From assembly GCA_903869265.1 (NCBI GenBank), contig CAIPYE010000015.1, forward strand, positions 248,001 to 312,000: a stretch of DNA of 64,000 nucleotides. The letters are read 5' to 3'. Below, one piece after another: positions 40,780-62,226 of this stretch (position 1 is the first letter of the stretch; every line of letters starts with the position of its first letter). Both the position numbers and the translations under genes were made by a program. The DNA is from an uncultured delta proteobacterium. Lineage in GTDB: Bacteria > Desulfobacterota > Desulfobulbia > Desulfobulbales > Desulfurivibrionaceae. Under the pieces are notes generated by a model. It worked only from the letters and a program-made list of their open reading frames with translations. It made no database searches and was not told the origin of the DNA.

Positions 40780-43700
40780 CTATTTTGCACCAAAGGCGGT
40801 GATTTGCGCGTTTATCTGTTCATCGGTGAAGCCGCCCATGGAGATGGCAAATACCGGGCAATGCGAGGCGCAGATGCCGCAGCCCTTGCATGAGGCGGTG
40901 ATGGTTTCGGCCTTGCGCTTGCCGTTTTCGTCCTTGGTGATCCGGATGGACTGATACGGGCAGAGCGATTCACATAAGCCGCAGCCGATGCAGGTCTCCT
41001 TGTCCACGCAGGAAATGGTGGGCTCAACCGAAACAAAGCCCTTGCAGAGCGGGATGGATGCCTTGGCTGCCGCTGCCTGCGCCTGGACGATGATCTCCTC
41101 AACCGGCTTGGGCGAATGGGCCAGGCCGCAGACATAGACCCCGCTCACCGGCAATTCCACCGGACGCAGCTTGACATGGGCCTCAAGGAAGAACTTGTCC
41201 TCGTTGACCGGCACCTTCAAAAGCTTGCTGATCTCCTCGGTGCCTTCGGCAACAATGCCAACGCTCAGGGCCAGCACCTCGGGGTTCATGGTGACCTCGT
41301 CGCGGAGGATCGGATCGTAAAAAGTGACGCTGGTCTTCTTGCCGCTGCTCTTGAACTTCGGCTTGTTGTCCATGGTGTAAGGGATGAAGACCACCCCTTG
41401 TTCCCTGGCCTGGCGGTAGCTATCCTCGGCAAAGCCATAGGTGCGCATATCGCGGTAGAGCACGATCACCTGGGATGCCGGGTCGAGCGCTTTTATCTTG
41501 AGGGCGTTTTTCACCGCATGATTACAGCACACCTTGCTGCAGTAGTTGAGATCATCCCCCCGGGAACCGGCGCACTGCACCATGACCACCGACTTGGGCG
41601 CCAGGTTCTTGCCTTTGCCGGAGAGCCGCTTCTCCAACTCGCGCTGGGTAACTATTGCTTCGGAATACTCGACCGGGTTGCCCAGCACCACCTCGGGCCG
41701 ATGCTCGCGGCCGCCGGTGGCGATGATGATCACCCCATGATCGATGGTGGTTTCCGTGGTCTTCTTGCCCTTGGTGGTGGTAAGCACCGAGCTGAAGTTG
41801 CCGACAAAACCGTTGACCTGGGTCAGTTCGGTATTGGTCAGCACCTCGATCTTCTTGTTCTTCTTCACCGTGTCGGTCAGGTTGCCCAGAACCGTGCTCA
41901 CCGTGTCGCCCTGCAGGGTGAAGGAAAGATGCTGGAGATGTCCGCCCAGGGTATCCTCTTTTTCCACCACCGTGGTATGGAATCCCTGCTCAGCTAAGGT
42001 AAGGGCGGCGGTGAGTCCTGCCACGCCGCCGCCCAACACCAGGGCCTTGGCGGTAACCGGCACGGTCTGCTCGGGCAGGGGCTGGATATGGCGGGCCTTG
42101 GCAATGCCCATCCGCACCAGATCCATGGATTTTTGCGTTGCGGCCGCAGGCTCGTTGGCATGCACCCAGGAACAATGGTCGCGGATATTGACCATCTCGA
42201 AAAGGCAACGGTTCAGGCCTGCATCCTTCAGGGTTTCCTGGAAGAGCGGCTCATGGGTTCTCGGAGAACAGGCGGCAATAACCACCCGGTTCAGGTTGTG
42301 CTCCTTGATCTTGGCCTTAAGCACCTCCTGGGCATCCTGGGAACAGCTGTACAGGCTCTGAGCATGGTAGACAACGCCTTCCATCCCTTCCGTATACTGC
42401 TCAACCGACGCCACATCAACCACACTGGAGATGTTGATCCCGCAATGGCAGACAAAAACTCCGATCCGAACTTCTTCATCCGTGCCGGTTTTCTGCTCTT
42501 TGGGATAGGTCTTGTGCACCAAAGCCTTGCCGCGATCCTTGACGATAAGCCCGGCCGCTAAACCAGCAGCAGCGCTGGACTGGGTGACACTTTCCGGAAT
42601 ATCCTTGGGCCCTTGGAAAGCACCGGCGACAAAAACGCCCGGCTTGGTGGTGAGCAACGGGGCAAAGGTCTCGGTTTTGCAGAAATCGTACTCGTTCAGG
42701 GCGAATCCAGCGATCTCGCCGAGGTTCTTGGCATCGGCCGGAGCATCGAGCCCCACGGAAAGGACGACGATATCGTAGGGCTCGAAACTGTGCTTCCCGT
42801 CCATGGTGGAGTAGGTCAGCTTGAGATTTTTGTCCCAGGGCATGACGTCGGCCACCCGAGCCCGGACAAACTTGATCCCCATGGACTCCGCTTTCTTCTG
42901 GGCGGCATCGAAGCCCTTGCCCTGGGTCCGCATATCCATATAGTAGATGGTGATCTCCACCTCGGGATCATGTTCCTTGGCAACCATGGCTTCTTTAATC
43001 GCATACATACAGCAAACCGAAGAGCAATAGCCGTTGTTGCAGCCAAGATCCCGGGAACCCACGCACTGGATAAAGGCTATTCTTTTGGGATGCCTGCGGT
43101 CGGAGAGGCACTTCACCTCGCCCTCAAAGGGGCCGGAGGCGCAGAGCAACCGCTCGAACTCCAGACTGGTCATAACATCGGGATGCTGTCCATAGCTGTA
43201 CTTGGCCAGGGTTGCATCCGGAACACGACCAAAACCCGGAGCCATGATCACCGCACCGATGTGCAACTCTTTTTCCTCGGGCTTCTGGCTGAAGTCAATG
43301 GCCTTGCTTTGACAGGTGCAGACGCAAATCTGACAAGTACCGTGCTTGAGGTACAGGCAGGCCTCGGGATCGATAAAGTAGGTGGCAGGCACTGCCTGGG
43401 CATAATCGATGTGGATGGGCCGCGTAATTGCCAACCCTTCATTGTACTGATCCACCAGATGCCTGGGGCAATACTTGGTGCACAGCCCGCAGGCCGTACA
43501 CTTGTCCGCATCGATATAGCGCGGACGCATCCGCAGTTTGGCGGTAAAATTGCCCGGCTTTCCGTCCAGAGAAAGAAAATCGGCGTTGCTTAAGATTTCG
43601 ATATTGGGAGACCGACCGGCCTCTACCAGCTTAGGCGCGAGTATTCAAAGCGAACAGTCGTTGGTAGGAAAGGTTTTATCCAGCTGGGCCATGGCGCCGC

Positions 43701-43977: not shown

Positions 43978-46900
43978 TCAGCCCGGCAACTCATCACCCA
44001 ATACTGCAACCTTGATGGCGCACAGCTTGTATTCTGGCGTCCGCGAAAGACGATCCAGGGCATCCAGGGTCAGCATGTTCACCAGTGCCTTCAGGTGATT
44101 GTACGTGCTGAAAATGGTGCCCTCCTGGGTCCGGTCGGTGATGATTGCCCGCATCTCCACCGAACCGCGCCGCGAGGTGAGTCGTACCCAGTTTTTCTCC
44201 TTGATCCCCAGACGCTCGGCATCGTTCGGATTGACCTCGGCAAAGCACTCCGGGCTGACTTCATCGATTTCCGTGGTCTTGCCGGTCATGCTGCTGAAGT
44301 TATACCGGGCAATATCGCGACCGGTGGTGAAGAGGAGCGGATATTCCTCATCGGGCAGCTCAACCGGGGGGATATAATCCTCGGGAATGAACAGCCCCCT
44401 GCCCCGGGTGAACTTGCCAACATGCAAAACCGTAGTGCCGGGATGATGCTGATCCGGCACCGGCCACTGCAACCCGACCTTTTCCAGACGCTCGTAGGAG
44501 AGACCCTTGTACTGCGGCAAGAGCTGGCAGATCTCGTCAAAGATTTCCGAAGCGGAATTATAATGCATGGGATAACCCATCCGCTGGGAAAGCAGGGAGA
44601 TGATCTGCCAATCGGGCTTAGCCTCGCCCGGCGGCTCAACCGCCTTGCGAATCCTTTGGACTCGCCGTTCCGTGCAGGTAAAGGTGCCGTCTTTTTCAGC
44701 ATAGCAGGCGGCAGGCAACACCACATCCGCCATCTTGGCGGTGTCGGTCAGGAAGATATCCTGGACCACCATAAAATCGACCTTTTCCAGGGCCGCCTGA
44801 ACATGGGCGATATTGGCATCGGCCACCGCCGGGTCTTCCCCAAAGATATAGAGGCCGCGGATATCACCCTTAAAGACATTTTCCCATACCTCGGTGGCCG
44901 GCTTGCCAGGACGCCGGGGCAGCTTGATGCCCCAGTGCTTTTCATACTTGTCAAAGAGATCATCGGTTTCAAGGCCGCCATAGCCAGGCAGGGTATTGAA
45001 CAATGCCCCCATGTCGCAGGCGCCCTGAACATTGTTCTGACCACGAAGCGGGTTGCAGCCCGTGCCTTCCAAGCCGATCTTGCCGCAGAGCATGGCCAGA
45101 TTGGCAATGGACTTCACCCTGTCCGTGCCGGTGACATAATGAGTAATACCCATGCCCCAGAAAGCAGCGTTCCTGCCTTCCGCGGCATACATCCGGGCGG
45201 CCTGGCGCAGCTGATCTTCCTTGATGCCGGTGATCTTTTCCACCATCTCCGGGGTATATTTCTTGACCAGCCGGACCAGCTCGTCAAAATCCTCGGTGCG
45301 CTCCTCGACAAACTTCTTGTCCCAGAGCTCTTCCTCGAGGATTACCTGCATCATGCCGTTTAAAAAGGCGACGTCGGTCCCCGGCTGGATGCGCAGCCAG
45401 AGATCGGCCCGCTCGGCCAGCTTGGTCCGGCGGGGATCCACCACCACCAGTTTTGCCCCGCGGTCCACGGCCTGATGGATGCGCAAGCCAATGGTGGGAT
45501 GGCTGGTGTCCGGGTTGCTGCCGACCATGAAGAAGAGATCGGTTTTCTTTGTGTCCGCAATGGAGTTGGTCATTGCGCCGCTGCCGAAGGTGAGGGCCAA
45601 ACTGGCCACCGTAGGAGCGTGTCAGAGTCGGGCACAGTGATCGATATTATTCGTTCCGATCGCTGTCCGCATGAATTTTTGCATCAGATAGTTTTCTTCG
45701 TTGCTGGCCCTGGCGCAACTGAAACCCGAGATGGAGTCAGGCCCGTACATGGCCTTGATATCAAAGAATCTTTTAGACACCACGTTCAGGGCATCTTCCC
45801 AGCTTGTCTCAACCAGTTGGGAGCCCCGTCGCACCAAGGGCTTGGTCAGACGGTCCTTGTGCTGAACAAAGTTATGGCCAAACCTTCCCTTGACGCACAG
45901 CGCCCCGTAATTGGGCGCCAGGTCAGGATCGGCGGTGACTTCCATCAGGGTATTGCCCTTCACCTTGAGGATGATCTGGCAGCCTGCCCCGCAGTATGGG
46001 CAGGTGGAGCGCACCTCGCGAATCTCTTCGTTGATCACCGGCACCAATGCATCTTTTTTGTTCAGTGCCCCGGTTGAGCAGTTGTCCACGCAGGCACCGC
46101 AGTTGACGCAGTTCTCCTTGAACCTGAAGCGCAAGCCAAGCGGGCGACCCTTGTCATCAACAGAATCGGCGCTGATTTCCAGGGCATTGTATTCGCAGCT
46201 GTTCTGGCAACGCTTGCAATAGATGCACTTGTTCAGGTCCACCTGAATCATGGGATGGTCTATCTTTTCGGTATAGATCGGTTTTGCCGCCATCCCGGTC
46301 CGGGTTGGATCGAGGCCGAAGTCCGTGGCCAATTTTTTCAGATCACAACGGTCAAAGGCCCGACAGCCACAGGAGAGACAACGCTTGGCCTCGGTGATCG
46401 CCATCTGTTCGGAAAATCCGAGCTTGATTTCACTGAAATCCTGGGTGGCGATCTGAGGGGGCCGGGTGGGCATCTTCTCCCGCAGTTTAATGTTGATCCC
46501 CTCGAAATTGCGGAGATCCACGTCATCGAAACCCTTGCCCCGGGTGAAGTTGAACCGGCTTTCGGTCACGGTCTTGGTGATGCCCATGACCTGGGTATGG
46601 ATATTTTCCGCAGCCCGCCGGGCCGCGACCACGGCCTGGATCACCGAACGGGGACCGCTGGTCACGTCACCGGCCGCGTAGATGCCAGGATGGTTGGTCA
46701 GCGAGGTTCTGGGATTGGCCTTGATATTGCATTTCGGGGTCAGCTCCAGACTCGCTTCCAGTTCGCCGCCCTCGAATTTCTCCAGGCAAGCGCTTAAGCC
46801 CTGGGCAACAATAACGGTATCGGCAGTGATGTTCACCGTGGAACCGGGAATCGCCTCAGGGTACCGGATACCTTTCTCATCGGGCTCCCCGAGCTTGGTC

Positions 46901-48093
46901 CGAATCAACTGCACGGCAATGCCGTTGCTGGTGTCGCTGAAATTCACCGGCGCGGCCATGAGCAGGAACTGGACGCCCTCTTTTTCCGCCACCCGGATAT
47001 TACGCTGGTTGGCAGGCATCTCAGTCTGGGCCCGAGGGTAGATGATGGTGACCTGACCGACCTCGTTGCGCAACAGGGAGCGGGCAACCTCCATGGCCAC
47101 GTTGTTGCCGCCGAAAACCACGGCGGAACGGCCATAATTGCCAACCTTGCCCTCGGACATGTTCCGCAGAAATTTCGTGGCCGGGATTACCTTGGGCAGG
47201 GCACAGCCAGGGATATCCAGACTTTCGTCCACCGGAGTGCCGGTGGCGATGAGAATGGCCTCGTAGCCCTGATCCTTGAGGGATTGCAGGGTGAAATCCT
47301 CACCCCATTTCTGACTCAAACGGACATTGATCCCCATGCGCAGAATGGTGCTGATCTCGTAATCAAGAACATCCTGGGGGATCTTATAGTCGGGGATGCC
47401 GTAGCGCAACATGCCGCCAAGCTTTGGGGCGGACTCGAACACCGTGACATCGTGACCCTTGCGGGCAAGATAATAAGCGCCGGTCAGGCCGGATGGCCCG
47501 CCGCCGATAACGGCGATTTTTTTGCCGGTGGATGCATCGCGGGGAATGCGCAATTCGATCTTGTGGGCCATGCACCAGTCGGCGACAAAGCGCTTGAGAT
47601 GGTTGATGGACACCGGCTCATCAACAAGAATCCGGCGGCAGCGGGTTTCGCAGAACCTGGGGCACACCCTCCCCACGGAAAAAGGAAAGGGGTTTCGCTC
47701 CATGACCAAGCGCAGGGCCTCTTCGTACTGGCCTTTGGCCACATGGGCGATATAGCCCTGCACGTTAATCTGCCCGGGACAGGTGAGATTGCAAGGAGCC
47801 TTGCAGTCGCCGAAATGGGTCTCCATCAGGAGGGTCATGCGCTCAACGCGCTTGGCCTGCAATTCTTTGGACTCGGTGGTGATCCGCATCCCTTCGCTTA
47901 CAGGGGTTATACAGGAACGTACCGGCGCCTCCACCCCTTCCACGCTGACCACGCAGATCTCGCACGGAATATCCGAAGTCCCCTTGTTCACATAACACAG
48001 GGTGGGGATATGGATATCTGCCCGCTTTGCCGCTTCCAGGATGGTGATCCCTTCCTCGGCAACAATTTCATAACCGTTGATTGTGATATTCAT
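43978..48093 (-). CDS. formate dehydrogenase fused to NuoG-like and GltD/NfnB-like modules, selenoprotein (Sec824)
   Basis: A 1371-residue fusion. Residues 1-80 form a [2Fe-2S] domain (C33, C44, C47, C60). About 90-550 is a GltD/NfnB-like flavoprotein with FAD site 'IAVIGGGPSGLTGAYYL', NADPH-type site 'VVFGGNNVAMEVARSLL' and 'YPRAQTEMPA'. A ferredoxin domain follows ('CIYCKRCQNSCEYNA', 'CVNCGACVDNCSTGA'), and then an FdhF-type molybdopterin domain ('CPYCGAGCQ'). TGA at 45622-45624 lies in 'NNIDHCARL-U-HAPTVASLA'; the frame continues for 547 codons. The protein should couple formate/CO2 to NAD(P)H and ferredoxin, and through MvhD/HdrA to other carriers. Reading it as two genes would be wrong. 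Confidence 0.92.
45595..45607 (-). promoter_or_regulatory. SECIS-like hairpin of the fdh fusion
   Basis: On the minus strand GGCCA and TGGCC form a 5-base stem with loop GTT, 14 bases after the TGA. Outer GGTG/CACC pairing with a bulge extends it. Confidence 0.7.
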
Positions 48094-48173: not shown

Positions 48174-49529
48174 TTATGCCGCGGGCTTCCATTCTTTCAG
48201 GAAGGCGGGCAGATGTCCGGCTTCACGGGGACCGATGGTAATGGTCCAACCGGCCAGCTCTTCCTCAAGCTCGCCTTTCATGGAGGCAAGGTAGCCAGGG
48301 ATGATAATTTCCCGATGCTTGACCTTGGACTCGATCCCGGACTTTTTCATGAACGCCGCGATCATGTCCGCGCCGAACTTGCCCGCCGCCCAAGCGGTGA
48401 GGACCGAAAGACCTTCCGTGTCCTTGATCAACAGCCAGGAAGGCACCTTGCTTCCCTCGATCTCGCCGGACACAATAAAATAGGTGAGCGAGAAGTTGCA
48501 GGTGATGAGCACCGGGGAATCCTCGGTGGGACCGTTGATGTTGTAGACATCTTCCTGCACCACCATGGGCCGCTGCGGATCGGTGAAGATGTTCAACCGC
48601 TCCAGGAGCAAGGGGAAGAGAATATCGCCCTGCAGGTCGGAAAGCACGACGATGCCTGCGTATTTGGCAATCAACACCGAGGCGACCATGGCCTCCATCA
48701 GCGGATCAGCGGAGATCTCGCAGGGGAAGGTGATGGTCGGAAAGCCCAGGGGTTTGAATTTGGCGCGGATGGCGGAACGACGGCCAACCACACTGTCTTC
48801 CAAGGCGGCACGGATCGTGCGGGCACCGGAGTCGAGCATCAGATCCTTGAGGCCTGCGGCAAGAAGTTTTTCAGAAATTGCCACGGTATCGTCGAGGTTT
48901 GTTCCCCTGGCAACCAGAGGGCAACCGATCTCCTTGGCAAGAGCAGCCATGGCCTCAGCATTCTCAGCAGTGGCTCCATAAAGCAGAGGCTTGCGCTCCC
49001 CGCAGGCGGCAGCGGCAGCCTTGAGATTGTCGGGTTTGTCGCTCATCAGGATGAGACCGGCATCGGCTGCGCCGTCCAGTACCTTTTTGGTCAGAGCGGT
49101 GAAGGCACCACCGTCGCCTTTGGTGTCTTTGATCGCGATCAGGTCGGCTTTGAGCAGCACCCCGACCCGCTCGTAGCGAAGATTCTTGAACCGGGTGATA
49201 CGACCATCGACATCGGCTTCGTTCATGTCGGTGGTGACCAGCACCGCAATGCCGGTGGGGTTCTCAAAACGTTTTTCATGGCGAAACAGACAGGTCTCAC
49301 CGCCGGTGGTATAGGCGCTGTCCCCGGAGCCGAGCTTAATGGTACGGATCGGAGGGGCAGAGGCTTCGCCGATCTGCTCCTTGACCTCCTCGCTCACATA
49401 AGGACATTCGCCGATCTCGGTCTGTCCGGCTGCCACTTTCATGGCAAAGGCAAGACAGGTAGGGATGCCGCACTCACCGCAGTTCTTCTTGGGGAGCATT
49501 TTGAGGATTTGAATACCTGTTAAAGCCAT
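48174..49529 (-). CDS. acsC: corrinoid iron-sulfur protein large subunit
   Basis: A 451-residue gamma subunit (AcsC/CdhE) that carries the corrinoid and a [4Fe-4S] cluster for methyl transfer to acetyl-CoA synthase. The N-terminal cluster site is 'KKNCGECGIPTC...GECPY'. The TIM-barrel core has 'CEISADPLMEAMVAS', and the C-terminal corrinoid domain is present ('SGEIEGSKVPSWLLIKDTEG', 'AAGKFGADMIAAFM'). It lies downstream of acsB and upstream of the fdh fusion. Its partner AcsD is encoded in the metF-acsD fusion. Confidence 0.95.
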   Translation of the reverse strand: MALTGIQILKMLPKKNCGECGIPTCLAFAMKVAAGQTEIGECPYVSEEVKEQIGEASAPPIRTIKLGSGDSAYTTGGETCLFRHEKRFENPTGIAVLVTTDMNEADVDGRITRFKNLRYERVGVLLKADLIAIKDTKGDGGAFTALTKKVLDGAADAGLILMSDKPDNLKAAAAACGERKPLLYGATAENAEAMAALAKEIGCPLVARGTNLDDTVAISEKLLAAGLKDLMLDSGARTIRAALEDSVVGRRSAIRAKFKPLGFPTITFPCEISADPLMEAMVASVLIAKYAGIVVLSDLQGDILFPLLLERLNIFTDPQRPMVVQEDVYNINGPTEDSPVLITCNFSLTYFIVSGEIEGSKVPSWLLIKDTEGLSVLTAWAAGKFGADMIAAFMKKSGIESKVKHREIIIPGYLASMKGELEEELAGWTITIGPREAGHLPAFLKEWKPAA

Positions 49530-49637: not shown

Positions 49638-51842
49638 TTAAACAAGCGCTTCCATCTCAAGGGCCGGATGACCAACCTTTTTCATGAAGGCAAGGATTTC
49701 CTCCTCCGTGGTCCCGTTCTCCTCGGTGGCGATCATATCGTAAAACTCCGGCATGCCGATTTCCTTGCAACGCTCCATGAGTTTATCCTTGATCTCTTCC
49801 TTCATCATCTTGGGCAACCAGACCATCCGCGTAAGCCCGCCCTCGGCAACAAAAAGCTTGGGGCTGGTCATGAAATGCTTGGAAACCCCGATAAAGCCAG
49901 GGGTCTGCGCGCCACCCCCAGCCATACCGGCCAAAGAAGTGAACTTCATCCCGGAAGGCGTCATGCCACTGTAGTCACGGTTGACCACCATGATTCCGTT
50001 ACACTGGGGCAGCATGGCGGCAATGGCTTCGAAACAGCCGCAAGCAGTCATCGGGCTGTTCATCAGAGAGTACAAAGCAAGATCGGTTACAGCCCCGCGG
50101 GAGGTCTGATCGACAAAATCGTTGATCCCCTTGAAGCGGCCGAGTTTTTCATCCAGACAGTCGCCTTTCTGAATCGGCTGGTTGGGGCCGGTGGGGTTGA
50201 TCTGGTAGGAGGCCTTGCCATCCAGCCAGTTATAGGCGCCGCACATGCCGATCCGCTCCGGGGTAATAACGCAGACATGACTCGGAGCAAAGGATTGGCA
50301 CAGGGTGCAGGAGTAGAAGACCTCTTCGGTCTCGTCGGTCATGGAGCCCAACCGCTCATCGCGCTCTGCGTATACCTTGCGGGCAAGCTCCTGCACCTCT
50401 TCCACCTTGTCCAACTCGGTGTAGATTTTGACCTGGATCTTGTCGACAATGGCGCCGAACTCCTGATGCAGTTTGCCGTGCAACACCTTGCCGATATGGG
50501 TGAGGGAAAAACCCTTTTCCACCGCAGCCTTGCCGATCCGGAGCCACATGATGTTCCGCTGGCCCATGTGCATGATGCCTTGGATATAATTGATCAGGTG
50601 GTGAAACTGACGCTCAAGGATGGGCTCGAAATCCGACTGCATGCCACGTCCGGCAACCTCGACCAGGATACCGAGGGGCAAATTCTGGCCCACCTGGATG
50701 TCCTTGATGTCCGGCCCTTCGATGGTGACCTTGCCATCCTCAACCTCGGACATATCCTTGGAAACCAACACCTCAACCCCAGAAGTCCGACCGCCGCCGC
50801 ATTCCATGAAGAGATCGTCCTTGCGGATACGCTCACCCTCAAAGGCCGGGCCAAAGGACAAGGGGATATCGATCTTGGTGACGTTGACCTTGAGGCCGCG
50901 AACCTCAATGGCCTTCTGGACGATCTCGTCGTGGGGCACCTGGCTGACCACGTGCTCGTAGGTGCAAATCCCGGTGGGCAGCACCTGGGGAATGTCGTAG
51001 TCGGAGATGGTGGGGAAACCCCAGTTGATGGCGCCGGCAGCATTGGCGTACCACTCGTCGGAAACCGGGCCAAAGGCCATGACAAAGGCGAAGGTCCGGT
51101 CCTTGTTGTAGATCAGGTTGCCCTTATAGTCGCCGGGCTTGATACCGCCGAAGGCCATGGCCACGCGGCAGGCAAAGCCGATGGCAAAGACCGCGGAGGT
51201 GTAGCTCTTGCCAAAGGGCACCAGCCGGGTGTTCCAGCCGACCTGCACCTTGTTTTCCACCAGACGCTCGGCCATGTTCTTGCCGTTGGACTGATCGTGC
51301 ATGAAGATATAGAGGTTTTTCTCCTGAAGTTCCAAAGCGATCCGCGAGGCAACCTCATTATCGTCCGGGGTGCCCATGATGGCGGCAAAACCGGGCGCCG
51401 TGCCATCCACGAACTCAACGCCGCGTTTGCGGAAGATAACGTCATCGGCAGCGCCCAGCCAGATATTGTTCTCCAGCGGATCTTCGGTCTTGGTATAAAA
51501 ATCAGGGGTCTCCAGATACCGGATGGCCTCGTACATCTCCTCGACAAAAAAGGTGGCCATGCCCGCATCAAGAGCCGGGGCGAGGTACGGCAACCAAATA
51601 TTCTCGCTCACCAGTTCCGGCAGAAGGGTGCGGCACTCTTTAAAGATATCCTTCATGTCGCCCAGATTCTGCACCTTGGCGCCCAGCATACTGTAAATAA
51701 CCGGCAGGAAGTAGGCGGTGTTCGGAAAATGCACCTCTTGCTCGGGGCCATACTTCTTGATGGCCTCCTCGAACTTCGCTTCCGCCATATCAACTATCTT
51801 GTGAGCCCCACGGATGGCGGCCGAACAGATGATCTTAGACAT
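49638..51842 (-). CDS. acsB: acetyl-CoA synthase catalytic subunit
   Basis: A 734-residue alpha subunit of CODH/ACS (AcsB/CdhC) that condenses CO, a methyl group and CoA at the A-cluster. Cluster ligands are visible in 'YSCTLCQSFAPSHVC' and 'GMCGAYNWLDG' for the [4Fe-4S] part. 'TACGCFEAIAAM' holds the Cys-Gly-Cys that binds the distal Ni. The length is the full bacterial form with the N-terminal CODH-contacting domain. acsB lies between metF-acsD and acsC. Confidence 0.96.
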   Translation of the reverse strand: MSKIICSAAIRGAHKIVDMAEAKFEEAIKKYGPEQEVHFPNTAYFLPVIYSMLGAKVQNLGDMKDIFKECRTLLPELVSENIWLPYLAPALDAGMATFFVEEMYEAIRYLETPDFYTKTEDPLENNIWLGAADDVIFRKRGVEFVDGTAPGFAAIMGTPDDNEVASRIALELQEKNLYIFMHDQSNGKNMAERLVENKVQVGWNTRLVPFGKSYTSAVFAIGFACRVAMAFGGIKPGDYKGNLIYNKDRTFAFVMAFGPVSDEWYANAAGAINWGFPTISDYDIPQVLPTGICTYEHVVSQVPHDEIVQKAIEVRGLKVNVTKIDIPLSFGPAFEGERIRKDDLFMECGGGRTSGVEVLVSKDMSEVEDGKVTIEGPDIKDIQVGQNLPLGILVEVAGRGMQSDFEPILERQFHHLINYIQGIMHMGQRNIMWLRIGKAAVEKGFSLTHIGKVLHGKLHQEFGAIVDKIQVKIYTELDKVEEVQELARKVYAERDERLGSMTDETEEVFYSCTLCQSFAPSHVCVITPERIGMCGAYNWLDGKASYQINPTGPNQPIQKGDCLDEKLGRFKGINDFVDQTSRGAVTDLALYSLMNSPMTACGCFEAIAAMLPQCNGIMVVNRDYSGMTPSGMKFTSLAGMAGGGAQTPGFIGVSKHFMTSPKLFVAEGGLTRMVWLPKMMKEEIKDKLMERCKEIGMPEFYDMIATEENGTTEEEILAFMKKVGHPALEMEALV

Positions 51843-51907: not shown

Positions 51908-54556
51908 TTAACCCATGAGACCGTTGATCAGCGATTTGGTCAGAGAAACAGCTCTCGGATGCCGCATGATCATCAACTCACCACCTGCCATCAACATACA
52001 AGAAGCGGTGACAGCCTCCATGAGAATGCCCCGGGTTTCCTGATCACCGATCATCGCATCGGAGGGCAACCGGCACTCCTTGGCCTTCCAGACCTCACGA
52101 CCCAGGTTGCAGATAAAAGGCACCTGGAGCTTCTCGTCTTTTTGGGTCAACGCCGCAAGGCGGATTCGCTCCATGACCGAGTAGCTGTATTCAATCCCGT
52201 AGCCGAGTGCGCCGATGGAAGGGTCGATCAACACGGAATCCAGGGATACGCCCAGATTCTCAAGCAGAATATTGAGCTGTTTGGCCAGATTCACGTCAAT
52301 GGGCGAAGCAGCAACCATGGGATACTGGAAGGCCATGGCCGTGGCCCCGATTGCTCGGTAGTTGCTGTCGGACAACGGCGCCAGACAAACCTTCTTGTCG
52401 CCGATCAGGGAAGTGATCTCCCGCAGGGTCTCGGTATCTTTTTCGCCGTTGCCGCAGCCCCAGACAATCACCGGCACCTCGATGCTTTTAACCACCTCGG
52501 CTGCCGCCTTGGCAGCCTCGCCGGAAGGCTTGTTCAACCCGTTGGGGTCGGTGCTGACCATGGAGATACAGATAGCATCCGCGCCATATTCCTTGACACA
52601 TTTCTGGGCCCAGGCCACAGGATTGTCCATAACGTCCTGATAATGACGGGCCAAGGAATCGGGCCACTCGTCGGGTTTCACATCAAGTACGTCAAAGGCG
52701 ATCATGGGCTTGTTGGGCATGGCCCCTTCAAAAAGATGGAACGGCAGGGTGCTTTCCCCGCCCACCTTAATGCCGCTCGCCCCGTCGCCCAAAATCGTCT
52801 GGCGAATAGCGCCGGTGTATGCCTGCTTGTAAGAGGCTTCGGGCACCTTGGTAGCACGCTCGGCCAAAGAAGTTTTCTCAATGGCGAGTTCAGCTGCGCC
52901 AACAGCGGAAGTCACCGGAGCAGAAGCTGCCGGTGCTTTCTTTTCAACAGGGGCGGCGGATTTCTTGGTCGCTTCCGCAGCCTTGCTCTCGGCGGCTTTC
53001 TTGGCTGCCTCAATCTTCTTGGCCTCTTCCGCAGCGGCAACTTCGGCAGCCTTTTTCGCAGCTTCGGCTTTCTTAGCCTCTTCCGCAGCCTTCTCACCTG
53101 CTGCTTTCTTTGCGGCCTCAGCCTTCTTGGCCTCTTCGACCGCCGCAGCCTCGGCAGCTTTTTTGGCTGCGCTCTCATCCTTTACTGGAGCAGGAGCAGC
53201 CGGGGCAACAACCGGAGCTGCCGCCGGTAAAACAGGAGCAGCAAGTACCGGCTCACGTTTGAGAATAGCTTCTGCACCGGCAAATTTCACCAACGCATCA
53301 AACTGCTCGTCCGACAAGCCATAGGCCTTTTTCAGCGCATCAAGACCGAGACGTACTGACTCAAGCGCCATTTGACGTTCTTTTTCGTTCATCGCATCCT
53401 CTCCTGCTTCATCTATTTCAATCCTTGCCTGAGCAACCGCACCGGCCCCACTGCCGCCACTGACGTTGCTGGCTGACGCACGGAACTGAGCCGCTTCCGC
53501 CCTGGCTGCGGCGATAATCTTTTCCGCCTCAGCCTTGGCTGCCGCCAGGACAGCATCACTTTCCTCACTCCCGACCACCGTGGTCCGAACCTCGATTGCC
53601 GAAACCGGCACCGCAAGGACAACAGACTCATCGGCAAAGACCGGACGGGTGGCAAGCCCTGCCCGGCTGACAATCTCCGGCACAGCGCTCTCCCATTCAA
53701 TGGCCATGATATGCACCCCGGCCACCCCTTCTATCTCCCGGACCTGACGGATGATATCAACACAGATGTTGATGCCCTCGTCTTCCTTGTCCTTGGCTCC
53801 TTGCATCCGCTTGATCACCTCATCGGTGACATCCATGCCGGGCACGGAACTCTTCATGTACCGGGCCATGCCCACGGATTTCGGCGGGGTTACCCCGGCC
53901 AGGATGTGCACCTTTTTGTGGAGACCGAGATCACGGACCGCCTGCATGAATTTGGCAAACCGTTCCACATTATAAATGATCTGGGTCTGGACGAAATCAG
54001 CGCCGTTGGCAACCTTTTTTGCCAGCCGTACGGCCCGGAACTGCTCGGACGGTCCGGCAAAAGGGTTTGCCGCCGCGCCGAGAAAAAGCCTGGGCTCGTG
54101 CGACTTGATCAATTCGCCGCACTGGAATTTCTTCTCGTCGCGCATAGTCTTGACCATCCCGAGCAGCTGGATGGAATCCATGTCAAAGACACCCTTGGAG
54201 CCGGGATGGTTGCCGAACTTCTGATGATCGCCGGTGAGACAGAGCAGATTCTTGAGCCCCAAAGCGGCAGCGCCCAGGATATCGCTCTGCATCCCGATCC
54301 GGTTCCGGTCGCGGCAGGTCATCTGGATGACCGGTTCCACCCCTTCGGCCAGGGTCAACAGACCGGCGCTGATGCTGGACATGCGGACGATGGCGGTCTG
54401 GCAGTCGGTGATGTTGACCGCGTCAACACTCCCTTTGAGCAGACGGGCCTTCTCCCGCACCAGTTCGGCATTGCCGTTCTTGGGTGGCCCCAGCTCGCCG
54501 GTGACTGCGAACTCTCCTGATGTTAAAATCCGTTCTAAACGACTTCCCGATTTCAT
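51908..54556 (-). CDS. MetF-AcsD fusion: methylene-THF reductase joined to corrinoid protein small subunit
   Basis: One 882-codon frame. Residues 1 to about 310 are a MetF-type flavoprotein TIM barrel ('VTGELGPPKNGN', 'DAVNITDCQTA', 'LCLTGDHQKFGNHPG'). Next come a helical Ala/Glu stretch, an Ala/Pro linker and a Lys/Ala/Glu-rich coiled region (about 465-541). About 560-882 is AcsD/CdhD, the small corrinoid FeS protein subunit ('LPFHLFEGAMPNKP', 'VIVWGCGNGEKDTETL', 'DPSIGALGYGIEYSYSVMERI'). An internal ATG at codon 389 has its own AGGAGAGG site, so a separate AcsD may also be made. A fusion would hold the reductase next to the methyl carrier. AcsE, which joins these steps, is absent here. Confidence 0.88.
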   Translation of the reverse strand: MKSGSRLERILTSGEFAVTGELGPPKNGNAELVREKARLLKGSVDAVNITDCQTAIVRMSSISAGLLTLAEGVEPVIQMTCRDRNRIGMQSDILGAAALGLKNLLCLTGDHQKFGNHPGSKGVFDMDSIQLLGMVKTMRDEKKFQCGELIKSHEPRLFLGAAANPFAGPSEQFRAVRLAKKVANGADFVQTQIIYNVERFAKFMQAVRDLGLHKKVHILAGVTPPKSVGMARYMKSSVPGMDVTDEVIKRMQGAKDKEDEGINICVDIIRQVREIEGVAGVHIMAIEWESAVPEIVSRAGLATRPVFADESVVLAVPVSAIEVRTTVVGSEESDAVLAAAKAEAEKIIAAARAEAAQFRASASNVSGGSGAGAVAQARIEIDEAGEDAMNEKERQMALESVRLGLDALKKAYGLSDEQFDALVKFAGAEAILKREPVLAAPVLPAAAPVVAPAAPAPVKDESAAKKAAEAAAVEEAKKAEAAKKAAGEKAAEEAKKAEAAKKAAEVAAAEEAKKIEAAKKAAESKAAEATKKSAAPVEKKAPAASAPVTSAVGAAELAIEKTSLAERATKVPEASYKQAYTGAIRQTILGDGASGIKVGGESTLPFHLFEGAMPNKPMIAFDVLDVKPDEWPDSLARHYQDVMDNPVAWAQKCVKEYGADAICISMVSTDPNGLNKPSGEAAKAAAEVVKSIEVPVIVWGCGNGEKDTETLREITSLIGDKKVCLAPLSDSNYRAIGATAMAFQYPMVAASPIDVNLAKQLNILLENLGVSLDSVLIDPSIGALGYGIEYSYSVMERIRLAALTQKDEKLQVPFICNLGREVWKAKECRLPSDAMIGDQETRGILMEAVTASCMLMAGGELMIMRHPRAVSLTKSLINGLMG
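53390..53405 (-). promoter_or_regulatory. internal ribosome-binding site and start within metF-acsD
   Basis: AGGAGAGG (53398-53405, minus) lies five bases before ATG (53390-53392), in frame at residue 389. Restart here would give a 494-residue AcsD product, while read-through gives the fusion. Confidence 0.55.
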
Positions 54557-54614: not shown

Positions 54615-56609
54615 TCAAGAAGCGCTCGGGCCATGGCAGCCAACGTCTTTCAGACCACCGCCGCCAAGGTCACGACGCATGTCCATATCAAAAAGGACAC
54701 GCTCTTTCTTCTTGTTTATCCCCAGGGCGTCACGCTTTGCCTCGATCTTTTCGATCATGATTCTGGCGATCTCCATGGGCTCCGAAGCGATATTCCAATG
54801 AGCGCCCACCTGGTCCATCAACCCTTCGGTGAGATATTTATTGAAATTCTTGGCCCCGGTGATGGGCAGATTCTGGAACACGACCTGGGCGCCGCTGGCC
54901 ACGAAATATTGGCCGATGGCCACGGCCTTTTCACTCATCCACAGAGGAGCGGTGCCGATGGCGGGCAAATCGGAGATGTCATCGCCCAAACCACCTTGGC
55001 GCACCATTTCGGTGGCAGCGATGAGAATCCGGGAGTTGTCAACGCAAGAGCCCATGTGCAAAACCGGCGGCATGCCCACGGTCTCACAAACCTCCCGCAG
55101 GCTGTCACCGCAGAAACGGGCCGCCTCGGGGTTGAGCAAACCGGCCTTGCCGAGAGAGGTTGCAGCGCAGCCCGTGGCCAGAACCAGGATGTTGTTTTTC
55201 AACAACTCCCTGACGATGGTTTCATGGGTGTCGTCCGCCAGCTTAAAGTTATCGCAACCGACAATGGCAGCCACTCCGCGGATGCGGCCATTGATGATGT
55301 TGTCGTTGAGCGGCCGGTAACTGGCGCGAAAACGCCCGCCCAGCATGGTATTGATGGTTTCGTGACTGAAACCAACCACCACGTCCATCTTGGTTTCCTG
55401 GGGGATAAAGCATTTTCCCCGCTTCTTGAAATTCTTGATGGCGTGGGTCAGTATCTGTTTGGCGGAATTGAGCGCCTCGTGCTCCTCGAACTGGATATGA
55501 ATACCGCCGGGCATCTTGGCCCGATAGTTGGTGGTGATGATGTCGGTGTGGAAATTTTTTGCCACCTCGGCCACGGACTGCATGACGCACTGGACATCAA
55601 CCACCATCGCCTCCACCGCGCCGGTGGCCAAGACCATCTCCTGCTGGACAAAACCTCCGGCCACCGGAATCCCGCGGCGCATGAGAATCTCGTTGCCTGT
55701 GCAGCAAACGCCGGCAAGGTTGATGCCTTTGGCTCCCTGCTTCTTGGCCAGCTCCAGCATTTCCGGATCCTGGGCCGCGATGCACAAGGCCTCGGCCAGC
55801 AAAGGCTCATGCCCATGCACGGTGATGTTGACCTGATCGAGCCGCAACACCCCGAGGTCAACAATGGCGCGCCGGGGCACCGGAGTGCCGAACATGATGT
55901 CGGTCAACTCGGTGGAAAGCATGGAAGCTCCCCAGCCGTCGGACAAGGCGGTGCGAGAGGCCTGGAGCATGATGTTCTGGTATTCCTGATCAACGCCCAT
56001 GTGGGTGCGGTGCATCATCTCCACTACCTCACGGTCAATGCCGCGGGGCGCGATACCCAGTTTTTTCCAAAGGGCCTGGCGCTTGGGCGTGGCCCGTTTC
56101 AACATGGAAAGGGGCGCGTCATCCTGTTTGCCGAATTCGGCCAGAGCCTTCTCGCCGAGTTCAACCGCAATATCCTTCACCTCACGGTCTTCGGTGACGA
56201 TGCCGAACACCTCGGCCAGCTTTTTCAGCTTGGGTACATCCTTGATCTGGTGCGGGCCTTCCCCCTTGGCTGCCTCGAGGAAGCCCTTGACCATTTCCCG
56301 GGCATGATCGGTGTGCGCAGCGGAACCAGCGGCCACGGTACGGGCGAAATTCCTGGCTGCCACGGTGTCGGCGGTGGCGCCGCAGATGCCGAGCATGTCT
56401 TCCACGCCATCGATGATCTGGCAAGGCCCCATGTTGCAGTTGCGGCAGCAAGTTCCGCCGGAGCCGAAAAGACAGGCCGACATGCCCCGCGCTTTAACGC
56501 GGTCATAGGCGGTTCTGACGTTCTTGGCTATGTCCTGGGAGAGAATCTGTTGCGTGGAAACGCAGGTGATATCCGCGCATCCTTCACATCCATTTCGTTT
56601 GATCGCCAT
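54615..56609 (-). CDS. cooS: anaerobic carbon monoxide dehydrogenase catalytic subunit
   Basis: A 664-residue Ni-Fe CO dehydrogenase (CooS/AcsA). N-terminal cluster ligands are seen in 'NGCEGCADITC' and 'GGTCCRNCNMGPC'. C-cluster region residues appear in 'LAGVCCTGNEIL' and 'VLHMGSCVDNSRI'. In this operon it supplies CO to AcsB, and it can run in reverse to oxidise acetyl-CoA-derived CO. It lies between folD and metF-acsD. No CooC or other Ni-insertion gene is in the window. Confidence 0.96.
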   Translation of the reverse strand: MAIKRNGCEGCADITCVSTQQILSQDIAKNVRTAYDRVKARGMSACLFGSGGTCCRNCNMGPCQIIDGVEDMLGICGATADTVAARNFARTVAAGSAAHTDHAREMVKGFLEAAKGEGPHQIKDVPKLKKLAEVFGIVTEDREVKDIAVELGEKALAEFGKQDDAPLSMLKRATPKRQALWKKLGIAPRGIDREVVEMMHRTHMGVDQEYQNIMLQASRTALSDGWGASMLSTELTDIMFGTPVPRRAIVDLGVLRLDQVNITVHGHEPLLAEALCIAAQDPEMLELAKKQGAKGINLAGVCCTGNEILMRRGIPVAGGFVQQEMVLATGAVEAMVVDVQCVMQSVAEVAKNFHTDIITTNYRAKMPGGIHIQFEEHEALNSAKQILTHAIKNFKKRGKCFIPQETKMDVVVGFSHETINTMLGGRFRASYRPLNDNIINGRIRGVAAIVGCDNFKLADDTHETIVRELLKNNILVLATGCAATSLGKAGLLNPEAARFCGDSLREVCETVGMPPVLHMGSCVDNSRILIAATEMVRQGGLGDDISDLPAIGTAPLWMSEKAVAIGQYFVASGAQVVFQNLPITGAKNFNKYLTEGLMDQVGAHWNIASEPMEIARIMIEKIEAKRDALGINKKKERVLFDMDMRRDLGGGGLKDVGCHGPSAS

Positions 56610-56690: not shown

Positions 56691-57578
56691 TTATTTCTGG
56701 GCTGCACGCTGCCTAGCCGCCTGTACGGTGTTTTTCATGAGCATGGTGATGGTCATGGGTCCGACCCCACCCGGAACAGGGGTAATATACGAGGCTTTTT
56801 CCTTTACCGCATCAAAATCCACGTCACCGGCGAGAATGGCCTTGCCTTCTGCGGTTTTGCCGATCCGGTTCACACCGACATCGATTATAACCACCCCATC
56901 TTTGACCATGTCGGCGGTCACCATTTTCGGTACGCCAACCGCGGCGATGATGATATCGGCCCGCTTGCAATGGGCAGCCATGTCCTTGGTGCGGGTATGG
57001 CACAAGGTGACAGTGGCATTGCCGCCTTTGCGCTTCTGGAGCATCAGGTTGGCGATGGGCTTGCCGACGATGTTGCTGCGACCAATAACCACAACCTCGG
57101 CGCCGCTGGTCTCTACGCCGCTACGGGTCAGAAGCTCGAGAATACCATGGGGCGTGCAGGGCAGAAAGCACTCTTCGCCCACCACCATCTTGCCCACATT
57201 CACCGGATGAAAGCCATCCACGTCCTTGGCCGGATCAATGGCATACAGCACATTGGTCTCATTGATATGCTTGGGCAGGGGCAATTGCACGAGAATGCCG
57301 TGGATGTTCTTGTCCTTGTTATATTTCTCGACAATGGCGAGCAGATCCTGCTCACTGGTATCGGCGGGAAGGGTAACCTGCTCGGAATGAATGCCAAGCG
57401 CATGGGCGGTCTTGTTCTTGGCGCTCACATACGATTGAGAGGCCGGGTCTTCTCCCACCAAAATCGTGACAAGACCGGGAACAACATTGTGCTTTTCCTT
57501 AAGTTCCGCAACCTCGGTCTTCAACTCTTCACGAATGGCTTTTGCAACTTCCGTCCCGCTGATAATCTTGGCACTCAT
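56691..57578 (-). CDS. folD: bifunctional methylene-THF dehydrogenase/cyclohydrolase
   Basis: A 295-residue enzyme that interconverts formyl-, methenyl- and methylene-tetrahydrofolate. The catalytic Lys region is 'SYVSAKNKTAHALG', the NADP site is 'VVIGRSNIVGKPIANL', and the C-terminal 'TPVPGGVGPMTITMLMKNT' is the family signature. An AAGGAG ribosome-binding site precedes the ATG. It provides the middle step between fhs and metF in the methyl branch. Confidence 0.96.
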   Translation of the reverse strand: MSAKIISGTEVAKAIREELKTEVAELKEKHNVVPGLVTILVGEDPASQSYVSAKNKTAHALGIHSEQVTLPADTSEQDLLAIVEKYNKDKNIHGILVQLPLPKHINETNVLYAIDPAKDVDGFHPVNVGKMVVGEECFLPCTPHGILELLTRSGVETSGAEVVVIGRSNIVGKPIANLMLQKRKGGNATVTLCHTRTKDMAAHCKRADIIIAAVGVPKMVTADMVKDGVVIIDVGVNRIGKTAEGKAILAGDVDFDAVKEKASYITPVPGGVGPMTITMLMKNTVQAARQRAAQK

Positions 57579-57988: not shown

Positions 57989-60205
57989 TCATTCCGGTTT
58001 TTTTGCCCGATCGTTCGCCAGTTTGACAATAATATTGTTCGCCTGACTCAAACGGTTGACCACGGTTTTAAAAAGGTGGTTGGCCACATCGGGATATTTT
58101 TGGATAACCTCCTGGAGCTTGTCGCCAGGAAACCGTTTTACCTTGGACCGTCCCTTGGAGGTGATGGAGGCGGAACGGGGCTCGCCAGAAATGGCGCTCA
58201 TCTCGCCGAAATATTCGCCCGGCTCTGTGATCTCGGCGATCTTTTTACCATCCTTCACCACGGATACGGCGCCGATGACCAGTTTAAAGAAATCACTGTC
58301 GTTGTTGTTCTGCCGGATGATGAAATCCCCATCCTCGTATTCCTCGATATCCGGATGGACCAGATAGGCGGGCAGACTCTCTTCGGTGATAACGGTTCTC
58401 TTCAGAATCTCTTCAATGCTGGTGGCGCCTTCGATAACCTTTTTTATCCCTGCCCGCCGCAGGGGGGTCATCCCCTCTTGCACGGCAATCTTGCGCAACT
58501 GATCTTCCGGCACTTCTGCACTGATCGCCTTGGCCACCTCATCGGTGATCTCCATCAGCTCAAAAAGACCGACCCTCCCCTTGTAGCCGCCGCCGTTGCA
58601 TTTCTGGCACCCCTTGGCGCGATAGATAACAAAATCTTTCTCAAGATCATTCTCTGTAAAACCAAGGGCGAGAAGCTCTTCCTTCGGCGGTCGGGGCACC
58701 TCCTCCTTGCAATGGACGCAAAGCTTTCTCGCCAACCTCTGGGAAAGGACCATGGTAACAGCCGAGGCCAGCATGAAGGGCGGAATGCCGATATCCACCA
58801 GACGACCGATGGTGGCGGGACAGTCATTGGTGTGGAGGGTACTGAAAACAAGATGCCCGGTCATGGCCGCTTTGATGGCAATCTCTGCGGTTTCCATATC
58901 CCGAATCTCGCCGACCATGATGATGTCGGGGTCCTGCCGGAGAAAGGCCTTGAGCGCCGCGGGAAAGGTCATCCCCACTTCTTTCTTGACATTGACCTGG
59001 TTGATCCCCTTGAAGTTGAACTCCACCGGATCTTCGGCGGTGAGGATCTTGGTGTCTTCGCTGTTGAGCGAATTGAGCACCGAATAGAGGGTTACCGTCT
59101 TGCCGCTGCCCGTGGGACCGGTAACGAGCAGCAGCCCCTGGGGCCGCTCGATACAGCGCTGGAGGGTGGCAAAGGTCTCCTTCTCAAAACCGAGCTTGGT
59201 GAGATCGACATTGAGACTGCCCTTGTCGAGGATACGCAGAACAATACTCTCCCCGAACAGGGTGGGCAGGGTGGAAACCCGGAAGTCAACGGCCCGGGTC
59301 CGCCCCAGCTTGATCCGGATACGACCGTCCTGGGGCACCCGACGCTCGGTGATATCAAGCTGGGACATGATTTTTATCCGTGAATTCAGGGCGTTCTTGA
59401 TCGAAAGGGGCAGATTCATGGACTTGTACAGGGAGCCATCCATGCGGTAGCGCACCTGGAGTGTTTTTTCGTAAGGCTCGATGTGAATATCGCTCACTCC
59501 ATCGTTGACCGCCTTGAGCAGGATGCCGTTCACCAGCTTGATAATGGGAGCGTCCGAAGCGGAATACTGATCACCGCCCGCCTCATCTTCCAGCGAGGCA
59601 ATCTCCATGCCATCGGCCGCCTCGGAGGCCAGGGTGCCAAAATCGTCGATCTGGGTAACAGGCTCCTCATCTTTTTCTTCTGCGCCCACCGAGGTGAAGA
59701 AAGACTGATGCTCCTCATCGCTGATCTTGTAATAGGTCTTGTAGGCGTCGACGATGTCCTTTTCGGTGGCGACGCAGACGGTCAGCGGCATTTTGACCGC
59801 GGCCTGCAAGCTTTCCACCGCGCCGGTATCCGTGGGCTCAGCCATGGCGACCTGGAGAGATTTACCTATCTGCCGCAAAGGAAACGCCAGATATTTCTTG
59901 GCAATCTCGTAGGGCAGGAGCGCCAATGCATCGGGTTTGGGCGGTTCCCTGCTGATGACAACGGATTGATAGTTGTGCAGGCGGCTTAAAAAGTTGAGGA
60001 TGGTGGATTCTTCAATATGACCAAGCCGCAGGAGGATGCTGCTCAGTCTCCCCCCGGATTTTTTCTGGGCGGCAAGGGCATCATCGAGCTGGTAGCTGCT
60101 GATCTGCCCGGCCTTGCGCAGCAGTTCGCCTATTTTGATCTTTCCGGCCCCGGATTGATCTTTTACCGTGGACCGCAAATTTGATTTATTGTCTGCTACG
60201 GCCAT
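57989..60205 (-). CDS. GspE/PilB-like secretion ATPase with C-terminal cNMP-binding domain
   Basis: A 738-residue ATPase of the type II secretion/type IV pilus assembly family. The N-terminal MshEN-type domain ('IGELLRKAGQISSYQLDDAL') is followed by the motor with Walker A 'GPTGSGKT', an Asp box, Walker B and the tetra-Cys zinc site ('CVHCKEE', 'CQKCNGGG'). The last 130 residues are a CRP-like cyclic-nucleotide-binding fold ('GDFIIRQNNNDSDFF', 'PGEYFGEMSAISGEPRSASI'), which is not part of usual GspE or PilB. No other pilus genes are adjacent, and it lies between fhs and folD. Second-messenger control of the motor is a reasonable inference. Confidence 0.88.
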   Translation of the reverse strand: MAVADNKSNLRSTVKDQSGAGKIKIGELLRKAGQISSYQLDDALAAQKKSGGRLSSILLRLGHIEESTILNFLSRLHNYQSVVISREPPKPDALALLPYEIAKKYLAFPLRQIGKSLQVAMAEPTDTGAVESLQAAVKMPLTVCVATEKDIVDAYKTYYKISDEEHQSFFTSVGAEEKDEEPVTQIDDFGTLASEAADGMEIASLEDEAGGDQYSASDAPIIKLVNGILLKAVNDGVSDIHIEPYEKTLQVRYRMDGSLYKSMNLPLSIKNALNSRIKIMSQLDITERRVPQDGRIRIKLGRTRAVDFRVSTLPTLFGESIVLRILDKGSLNVDLTKLGFEKETFATLQRCIERPQGLLLVTGPTGSGKTVTLYSVLNSLNSEDTKILTAEDPVEFNFKGINQVNVKKEVGMTFPAALKAFLRQDPDIIMVGEIRDMETAEIAIKAAMTGHLVFSTLHTNDCPATIGRLVDIGIPPFMLASAVTMVLSQRLARKLCVHCKEEVPRPPKEELLALGFTENDLEKDFVIYRAKGCQKCNGGGYKGRVGLFELMEITDEVAKAISAEVPEDQLRKIAVQEGMTPLRRAGIKKVIEGATSIEEILKRTVITEESLPAYLVHPDIEEYEDGDFIIRQNNNDSDFFKLVIGAVSVVKDGKKIAEITEPGEYFGEMSAISGEPRSASITSKGRSKVKRFPGDKLQEVIQKYPDVANHLFKTVVNRLSQANNIIVKLANDRAKKPE

Positions 60206-60462: not shown

Positions 60463-62226
60463 TTAGAACAGCCCTGAAACCTTCCCTGTTTCCGGGTCGA
60501 CATCAATACGTCGGAAAGCCGGATTCGAGCTGGTGCCGGGCATCAGGCTGATCGTTCCCGCACACGGGCAGAGGAACTTGGCGCCGGAATAAATCAGCAC
60601 GTCACGAACAGGCAACCGCCATCCCTTGGGCACGCCTTTGAGGGTCGGATCATGCGTCAGGCTCAAGTGGCTCTTGACCATCATGGTGGCATAGTCGGCA
60701 TATTGAGGATCGCTCTCCAGCATCTTGACCTTGGCCAAAGCTTCAGCAGACCAATCAACACCGTCGCCGCCGTATACTTCCTTGGTGATCATCTCAACCC
60801 GGTCGCGCAGTTTCATCTCCAACGGGTAGAGGAACTTGAAGTCGTTTTCTTCGTTGCAGGCGTCGATTACCGCATCGGCGAACTCGAGCGCTCCGTCGCC
60901 CCCTTTTTCCCAATGCTTGGATTCGGCGCAACGAGCCCCGGCAGCCTCGGCGATCCGGCGGACAACCTTGCACTCTGCGTCGGTGTCGGAGTAAAAGCGG
61001 TTGATGCAGACCACCGGGTTGATGCCGGCCTTGCGGATGACATTGATCAGATGGACCATGTTCTCGCAGCCCTTCTCGACCAGCTCGATGTTCTCCTTGG
61101 TATAGGCGTCATCGAGAGGCTTGCCCGGAACAACCTTCGGTCCGCCGCCGTGCATCTTCAGGGCGCGGATGGTTGCGGTGAGAACGGAAACATGCGGCTT
61201 GAGGCCGGAGTAGCGGCATTTCACGTTCCAGAATTTCTCAAAGCCGATGTCAGCGGCAAAGCCGGACTCGGTGATGTTGTAGTCAAAGAGCTTCAGGGCA
61301 ACCCGGTCGGCGATGATGGAAGACTGGCCGACCGCGATGTTGGCGAAAGGTCCGGCGTGGACCAGGCAGGGGTTGTACTCGGCGGTGCACATCAGGGTCG
61401 GGTTGATGGTGTTGCGCATGAAAGCGGCCATGGCGTTGCCGACTTCCAGGTCGCGGCAGGTAACCGGCTTGCCGCTCTTGTCAAAGGCCACGGTGATGTT
61501 GTTGATCCGTTCCTTCAAATCCGCCAGGTCAGTGGCGATGGACAGGATGGCCATCAGCTCGGAGCCCACGGCGATGCCGAATTTGGACTGCATGGTGTAC
61601 CCGTCTGTACGGCCGCCGAGGCCGATGACGATGTTGCGCAGCGCCTGGGCACAGAAATCGATGATCCAGCCGAATTCCACCCGGGTGGGGTCGATGTCAA
61701 GCCGCCGCATGCCGGTCAGTCTGGCCAGCTGCTCATCGTTATAGTTCCGCTCATGCTGCATGCGGGCGGTCATGGCCACCATGCCCAGGTTGTGGGCGTT
61801 CATGATGTCGTTGATATCTCCGGTAAGCCCCAGAGAGAACTCGGTCATCGGGATCAAGAGGGAGTTGCCGCCACCTGCCGCAGTCCCCTTGACGTTCATG
61901 GTCGGGCCGCCGGAAGGTTGACGCAGGGCGCCGCCGACATTCTTGCCGCGCTTGCCCAACCCTTCCATCAGGCCGCAGGAAGTAGTGCTTTTCCCTTCCC
62001 CAAGAGGCGTTGGGGTAATCGCTGTTACCTCAATGTACTTGCCGTCCGGCTTGTCTTTGAGGCGATTCATAATTTTAAGGAAATCGAGCTTGGCCAACCT
62101 GCCCATGGGGAGAATTTCGTCTTTCTCAAGTCCTAATTTGTCTCGCCATTCCTCAGGGGTGGGCATGTTCTTTTCGGCAGCCTCGGAAATCTGCCAATCT
62201 GCCATATTCACCGCATCAAAAGCCAT
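60463..62226 (-). CDS. fhs: formate-tetrahydrofolate ligase
   Basis: A 587-residue enzyme that makes 10-formyl-THF from formate, ATP and THF, the first C1-carrier step of the methyl branch. The P-loop '[16 protein letters not shown]' is present, and so are '[20 protein letters not shown]' and '[11 protein letters not shown]'. An AAGGAGAACG ribosome-binding site is upstream. The gene is about 100 bases after thyX and may be cotranscribed with it. A strong terminator follows. Confidence 0.97.

Follow-up and report, generated by a model that had tools for sequence, protein, structure and literature searches.

The closest described counterpart of the gene presented here is found in the 2016 genome account of Desulfurivibrio alkaliphilus AHT2 (PMC5016858). 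Its figure abbreviations include an 'mthfr/acsD fusion', spelled out as methylene-H4folate reductase/CFeSP small subunit, and its main text calls the gene simply methylene-THF reductase and cites Pierce et al. 2008 for the MLMS-1 cluster. The neighbouring genes given in that text fit those of our locus; internal start, conserved island, distribution and partner are not discussed in the available parts of the account. Given this abbreviation, the fusion itself is not new; the author of the preliminary description of the locus did not know it as a described protein. The available parts of the papers on T. dismutans, Dissulfurimicrobium, D. rimicarensis, cable-bacteria nickel, Seep-SRB and HRM2 mention no such fusion, and the open-licence literature returned no match for metF-acsD or similar wording. 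Neither did we find there any mention of the conserved internal start.

Three other systems resemble parts of the gene. Pull-downs in Sporomusa, according to the available parts of PMC9430772, show MetVF interacting with Hdr and MvhD proteins; this acetogen HdrCBA-MvhD-MetVF arrangement shares with our case an MTHFR-family MetF and, in relatives, the linkage of metV, mvhD and hdr genes. The acetogen MetF, however, is a stand-alone protein encoded beside metV; the present one is joined to AcsD, with metV at another place in the genome. The CFeSP small subunit (AcsD/CdhD; PDB 2h9a_B, 4djd_D) has the same TIM barrel, 42-43% identical in structural alignment, to which our AcsD adds an N-terminal island, a linker and MetF. 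Finally, the Rpn gene-within-gene systems, as described in the accessible parts of PMC10327210, likewise have a separately translated C-terminal product; there the pair is toxin and antitoxin, whereas here, as predicted from sequence, it would be a metabolic fusion and one of its own subunits.

The fused frame and its neighbours

The window, meaning the whole 64,000-nucleotide stretch analysed, holds at 51908-54556 on the minus strand a single open frame of 882 residues plus stop, which unites two steps of carbon fixation. Its reading as MetF joined in frame to AcsD, made originally with the strand missing, is borne out by Pfam for both halves. PF02219 identifies residues 6-300 as MTHFR (E 1.4e-37, 130.1 bits against a cut-off of 24) and PF03599 (CdhD) covers residues 588-827 (E 1.3e-42, 146.4 bits against 24.8). 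On the AcsD half the PRK04452.1-2 profile reaches 371.9 (cut-off 280), and two other profile scores stay below their cut-offs, namely NCBIfam WLP_AcsD (299.3 against 430) and TIGR00381 cdhD (224.9 against 252.9). PDB 2h9a_B matches residues 577-875 by sequence (E 3.4e-81). Nothing else in the genome matches the AcsD half, and the MetF part alone is covered by two further matches of 27% and 29% identity.

An AlphaFold2 model built from 31 sequences (mean pLDDT 74, pTM 0.46) contains two TIM barrels, a helix at 330-363, a helical hairpin at 391-432 and a long helix at 462-529, the mutual placement of which is of low confidence. Foldseek matches to the model are CFeSP small subunits and MTHFRs, the MetF domain matching T. 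thermophilus MTHFR (8eac_A, E 6.6e-14). Between MetF and AcsD the sequence is hypervariable linker except for an island of ~50 residues beginning AGE(D/H)xMNE, over which the hairpin is modelled. The features are as follows, in window coordinates:

60463-62226, minus strand: fhs, formate-THF ligase
56691-57578, minus strand: folD
54615-56609, minus strand: CODH catalytic subunit
51908-54556, minus strand: fused metF-acsD gene, 882 aa
53657-54541, minus strand: MetF (MTHFR, PF02219) domain, residues 6-300, TIM barrel (Pfam, AlphaFold2 model, Foldseek)
53408-53656, minus strand: first variable linker, residues 301-383, with predicted helix 330-363
53401-53405, minus strand: internal Shine-Dalgarno AGGAG, its GGA being the Gly385 codon
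53390-53392, minus strand: internal ATG, Met389, predicted start of a 494-aa AcsD and acsD start in two split relatives
53255-53407, minus strand: conserved island AGExxMNEKERQMALESV...FAGAEAILKREP, residues 384-434, predicted helical hairpin 391-411 and 416-432
51908-53392, minus strand: putative second product, 494 aa, unfused AcsD with island and linker
52832-53254, minus strand: second linker, Pro/Ala then Ala/Lys/Glu rich, with predicted long helix 462-529
51914-52831, minus strand: AcsD (CFeSP small subunit, PF03599) domain, about residues 576-881 (Pfam, PDB match)
49638-51842, minus strand: acsB, acetyl-CoA synthase
48174-49529, minus strand: acsC, CFeSP large subunit, partner of AcsD
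43978-48093, minus strand: formate dehydrogenase-like gene with in-frame TGA at 45622-45624
40780-43530, minus strand: HdrA-like FAD/4Fe-4S protein, with a homologue that other fused lineages keep in one run with mvhD, hdrC and metV

All of these genes lie on one strand, as does a pilB-like gene between folD and fhs.

The same architecture was found in 41 of 58 relatives (the window's genome counted) and in nine or more further families of the phylum. Both halves fall into a single match in 37 of these 41 (a contig end truncates one) and into two matches within one open frame in the other four. At the scale of the class, the central island was matched in 142 of 257 genomes, of which 141 were read (G038 is not among them): the frame is intact on both sides in 116, cut by a contig end only in 14 and broken in 11. 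The breaks lie inside MetF (seven), in the second linker (two), inside the island (one, G078) and inside AcsD (one); in the stretch that leads from MetF to the internal start, none of the 141 genomes has a stop or a break. An assembly or sequencing error hiding a stop between two genes could point to those 11 frames broken elsewhere in the gene, but the frame is intact in 116 of the 141 genomes, and several carriers are single-contig assemblies (G019, G115, G122, G123, G127). With the fusion in frame in 41 of 58 relatives as well, we reject the artefact at the junction and give it practically no probability.

Outside the class, stop-free fused linkers were read in nine families (f42, f43, f62, f69, f75, f78, f91, f96, f105). 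Families f79 and f113 were called fused from the reported open frame alone, among the matches listed. Only families with a linker sequence read are counted as certainly fused, because one genome of f42 (G353) had a reported open frame of 715 and yet its sequence has a TAA after MetF. This genome and G588, also of f42, have a stop at the junction. Intact linkers are carried by, among others, a Desulfurivibrio, a Desulfocapsa, Candidatus Electronema aureum and Thermosulfurimonas dismutans S95; Candidatus Electrothrix aarhusensis (L250) has a frameshift inside MetF. Several groups, f43, f62, f91 and f96 among them (e.g. L178-L190), have longer MetF-AcsD linkers of ~370-460 aa with TPR-like repeats by eye.

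Judged by comparison of the sequences, the in-frame MetF-AcsD fusion is genuine, old and conserved. Maximum-likelihood trees were made for 46 MetF domains and 34 AcsD domains, the latter with only four unfused rows outside. The fused and unfused labels need three changes on these trees, and the unfused forms group separately from the fused ones, with the exception of G353, placed within the fused clade in both. We read this as one fusion that was later re-split, bearing in mind that the drawn roots are midpoints, that the G353 MetF branch is long and that G588 is not in the trees. The joining into one polypeptide of MetF and AcsD, the latter part of the methyl carrier that supplies acetyl-CoA synthase, apparently predates the separation of the window's class from the other fused families of the phylum.

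Separate genes in a comparable order are found in two Desulfobacterales loci (L261, L262), which read hdrA, mvhD, hdrC, mvhD, metV, metF, acsD, acsB, acsC, followed in L262 by acsE and fdhA. Six of the seven fused loci read outside the class keep this order with metF-acsD fused, and the seventh (L205, f42) keeps metV adjacent. Stand-alone MetF and AcsD also occur in genera g45-g60 of family f12, which belongs to the same order as the window (14 genomes: L307, L308, L310-L321). Their AcsD has an open frame of roughly 500-550 residues, three read cases measuring 525-535 with no fused MetF, and the two included in the tree lie apart from the clade of fused forms. These stand-alone genes hint at pathway-gene replacement in g45-g60.

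A predicted internal start between the two domains

The start of the island coincides with a translation initiation motif, at the DNA level mostly GCA GGA GAR NNN NNN ATG AAY GAA. The site is readable in 138 of the 141 genomes, spanning 13 families (G241 and G117 are truncated at this point; G078 has a frameshift within the island but the same start motif). ATG, the glycine codon GGA and the upstream GGAG core are each present in 138 of 138, such order-wide conservation being phylogenetically correlated. The spacing from GGAG to ATG is eight bases in 137 of them, as counted, and G034 has the same plus a second GGAG abutting the ATG.

This goes beyond what the protein sequence demands of the Shine-Dalgarno and the start codon. 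Among the 116 intact genes, GGA encodes Gly385 in every one; at the other 42 conserved Gly columns its share averages 11.7% and peaks at 32%. Gly385 ranks first in codon conservation among 383 conserved columns. GGAG likewise precedes Met389 in all 116; at the other 14 conserved internal Met columns it does so in at most 14% of genomes. Local folding around Met389 is weaker than at other in-frame ATGs (-9.1 vs -15.1 kcal/mol), and codons 2-7 after it are A-rich, with 39% GC in genes of 55% GC. In the window's genome the internal Shine-Dalgarno (-7.4) is stronger than that of the first start (-6.0). Ranked by Shine-Dalgarno energy alone, Met389 comes first in 37, second in 39 and third in 32 of the 116 genes, that is, in the top three in 108. 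The preliminary reading of the gene as a fusion holds, but it missed this conserved ribosome-binding site, from which an additional, unfused AcsD is predicted.

Outside the class a strong internal ATG site is found in three f42 loci and in f75. Among fused f42 members, G430, of the same genus as G353 and G588, has GGAG, eight bases and ATG at the homologous place, and both loci read in f43 have GGAGG, eight bases and GTG instead of ATG. By eye, no clear internal ATG site is seen in the fused f62, f69, f78, f96, f105 and most f91 loci, and the f42 fusions L205 and L343 have neither island nor internal start.

The two split genomes of that single f42 genus are informative. In G353 and G588 a stop directly follows MetF and acsD begins, at the homologous place, with SD-ATGCAAAATGAAAAAGA. 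A helical-looking stretch comes next, similar to that in fused f42 members, which have an internal Met behind GGAGG at this place; in G588 metF and acsD are also out of frame. In close relatives of the fused forms, then, the homologous place serves as a start codon. Taken together, the conserved internal start and the split relatives that begin acsD there suggest that the gene most likely makes two proteins.

Could the motif instead be the relic of a former separate acsD gene, in a gene that now makes full-length fusion only? A former start is to be expected, since unfused metF directly before acsD exists (L261, L262), and several fused families lack a clear ATG site. A relic would drift, however, and GGA is kept at all 138 sites in genes that use it for ~10% of glycines; moreover, the acsD of L261 and L262 lacks the island, and the linkers flanking the island are both hypervariable. 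We consider a relic unlikely. Ribosome pausing at the Shine-Dalgarno, giving MetF time to fold with no initiation, would suit a site that the structural model places between two folded domains. Pausing, however, needs no ATG at fixed spacing, no A-rich codons and no open structure, all of which are present, and the split relatives use this very place as a start, so pausing without initiation strikes us as very unlikely.

Two predicted products and their partners

On balance we think it probable that this ancient metF-acsD fusion is a two-in-one gene, yielding the fusion and a 494-aa AcsD, with a MetF arm of MetVF/Hdr type and with AcsE still needed. Ribosomes entering at the first ATG would make MetF-linker-AcsD, and those entering at the internal AGGAG, eight bases ahead of the Met389 ATG, would make a shorter AcsD led by the helical-hairpin island. 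Internal initiation would in this way supply AcsD beyond the MetF-bearing form. AcsD and AcsC are both needed to hold the corrinoid. Both AcsD forms could pair with AcsC into the corrinoid iron-sulfur protein, so that part of the pool would carry a MetF arm and part would not. The MetF arm would take electrons from MetV-MvhD-HdrC/HdrA, and the transfer of the methyl group from methyl-THF to the corrinoid would still require AcsE.

The last point bears on a suggestion made when the locus was first described, namely that the fusion could channel the methyl group. AcsE is the only step between the roles of the two domains and acsE is indeed outside the cluster, as noted then, which could favour a direct passage from MetF to the corrinoid protein by-passing AcsE. 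The genome nevertheless encodes one AcsE homologue on another contig (match to PDB 1f6y, E 1.3e-45), so the fusion need not replace AcsE. Among the 141 island-bearing genomes, AcsE is found in 131 and MetV in 128; ten have no AcsE and 13 no MetV, many of the genomes being drafts (249 of the 257 class genomes were searched, AcsE at E 1e-60). In other fused lineages acsE lies beside acsC, and the linker is long and variable. Judged from gene content, replacement of AcsE is rejected, and we regard a by-pass as highly improbable. Rigid channelling in particular finds no support, because ~270 residues of mostly variable linker join the two barrels. Recruitment of MetF to CODH/ACS by simple tethering, the other role proposed at the outset, is conceivable and might speed methyl flow.

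The electron partner is suggested by gene context. In other fused lineages hdrC-mvhD-metV lies directly upstream of metF-acsD, an order that points to the partners seen in the Sporomusa pull-downs. In the window's class the trio lies elsewhere in all 15 genomes looked at (the window's own and 14 more), with no close MetF homologue beside it in any of them (tblastn, E 1e-5); in the own genome MetV (PF12225) is on another contig, so metV is not next to metF. The trio is likely the redox partner of the fusion, and the MetF arm, of MetVF/Hdr type by context, might have ferredoxin- or Hdr-linked rather than NADH-linked activity. MetV has no relatives in the PDB at E 0.01. Also in the own genome, at L036 12892-14520 (C14), a different MTHFR gene is fused to a MetV-type C-terminal domain (542 aa). 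It stands ~2.9 kb away from the trio, so that the lone MetV might act with a MetF other than the fused one.

More tentatively, we speculate that the gene is a stoichiometry device. One transcript would give MetF-tethered and free CFeSP small subunits, the MetF arm with MetV-MvhD-Hdr would dock the electron-handling methyl branch onto CODH/ACS, and the helical island would act as docking module, an arrangement perhaps common to cable bacteria, Desulfurivibrio, Desulfocapsa and relatives. How a cell balances fused against free subunit can be tested on this gene, in which selection would have preserved a means of making one half separately. The gene may also help to establish whether cable bacteria and sulfur disproportionators have a methyl-branch assembly. 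In such organisms, size may be a misleading guide to the identity of AcsD or MetF.

Two neighbours deserve a remark of their own. The formate dehydrogenase-like gene probably encodes a selenoprotein (HCARL-TGA-HAPT), and the N-terminal part of its product is GltD/NuoG-like. Between folD and fhs, on the same strand at 57989-60205, lies a PilB-type ATPase with a C-terminal cyclic-nucleotide-binding domain.
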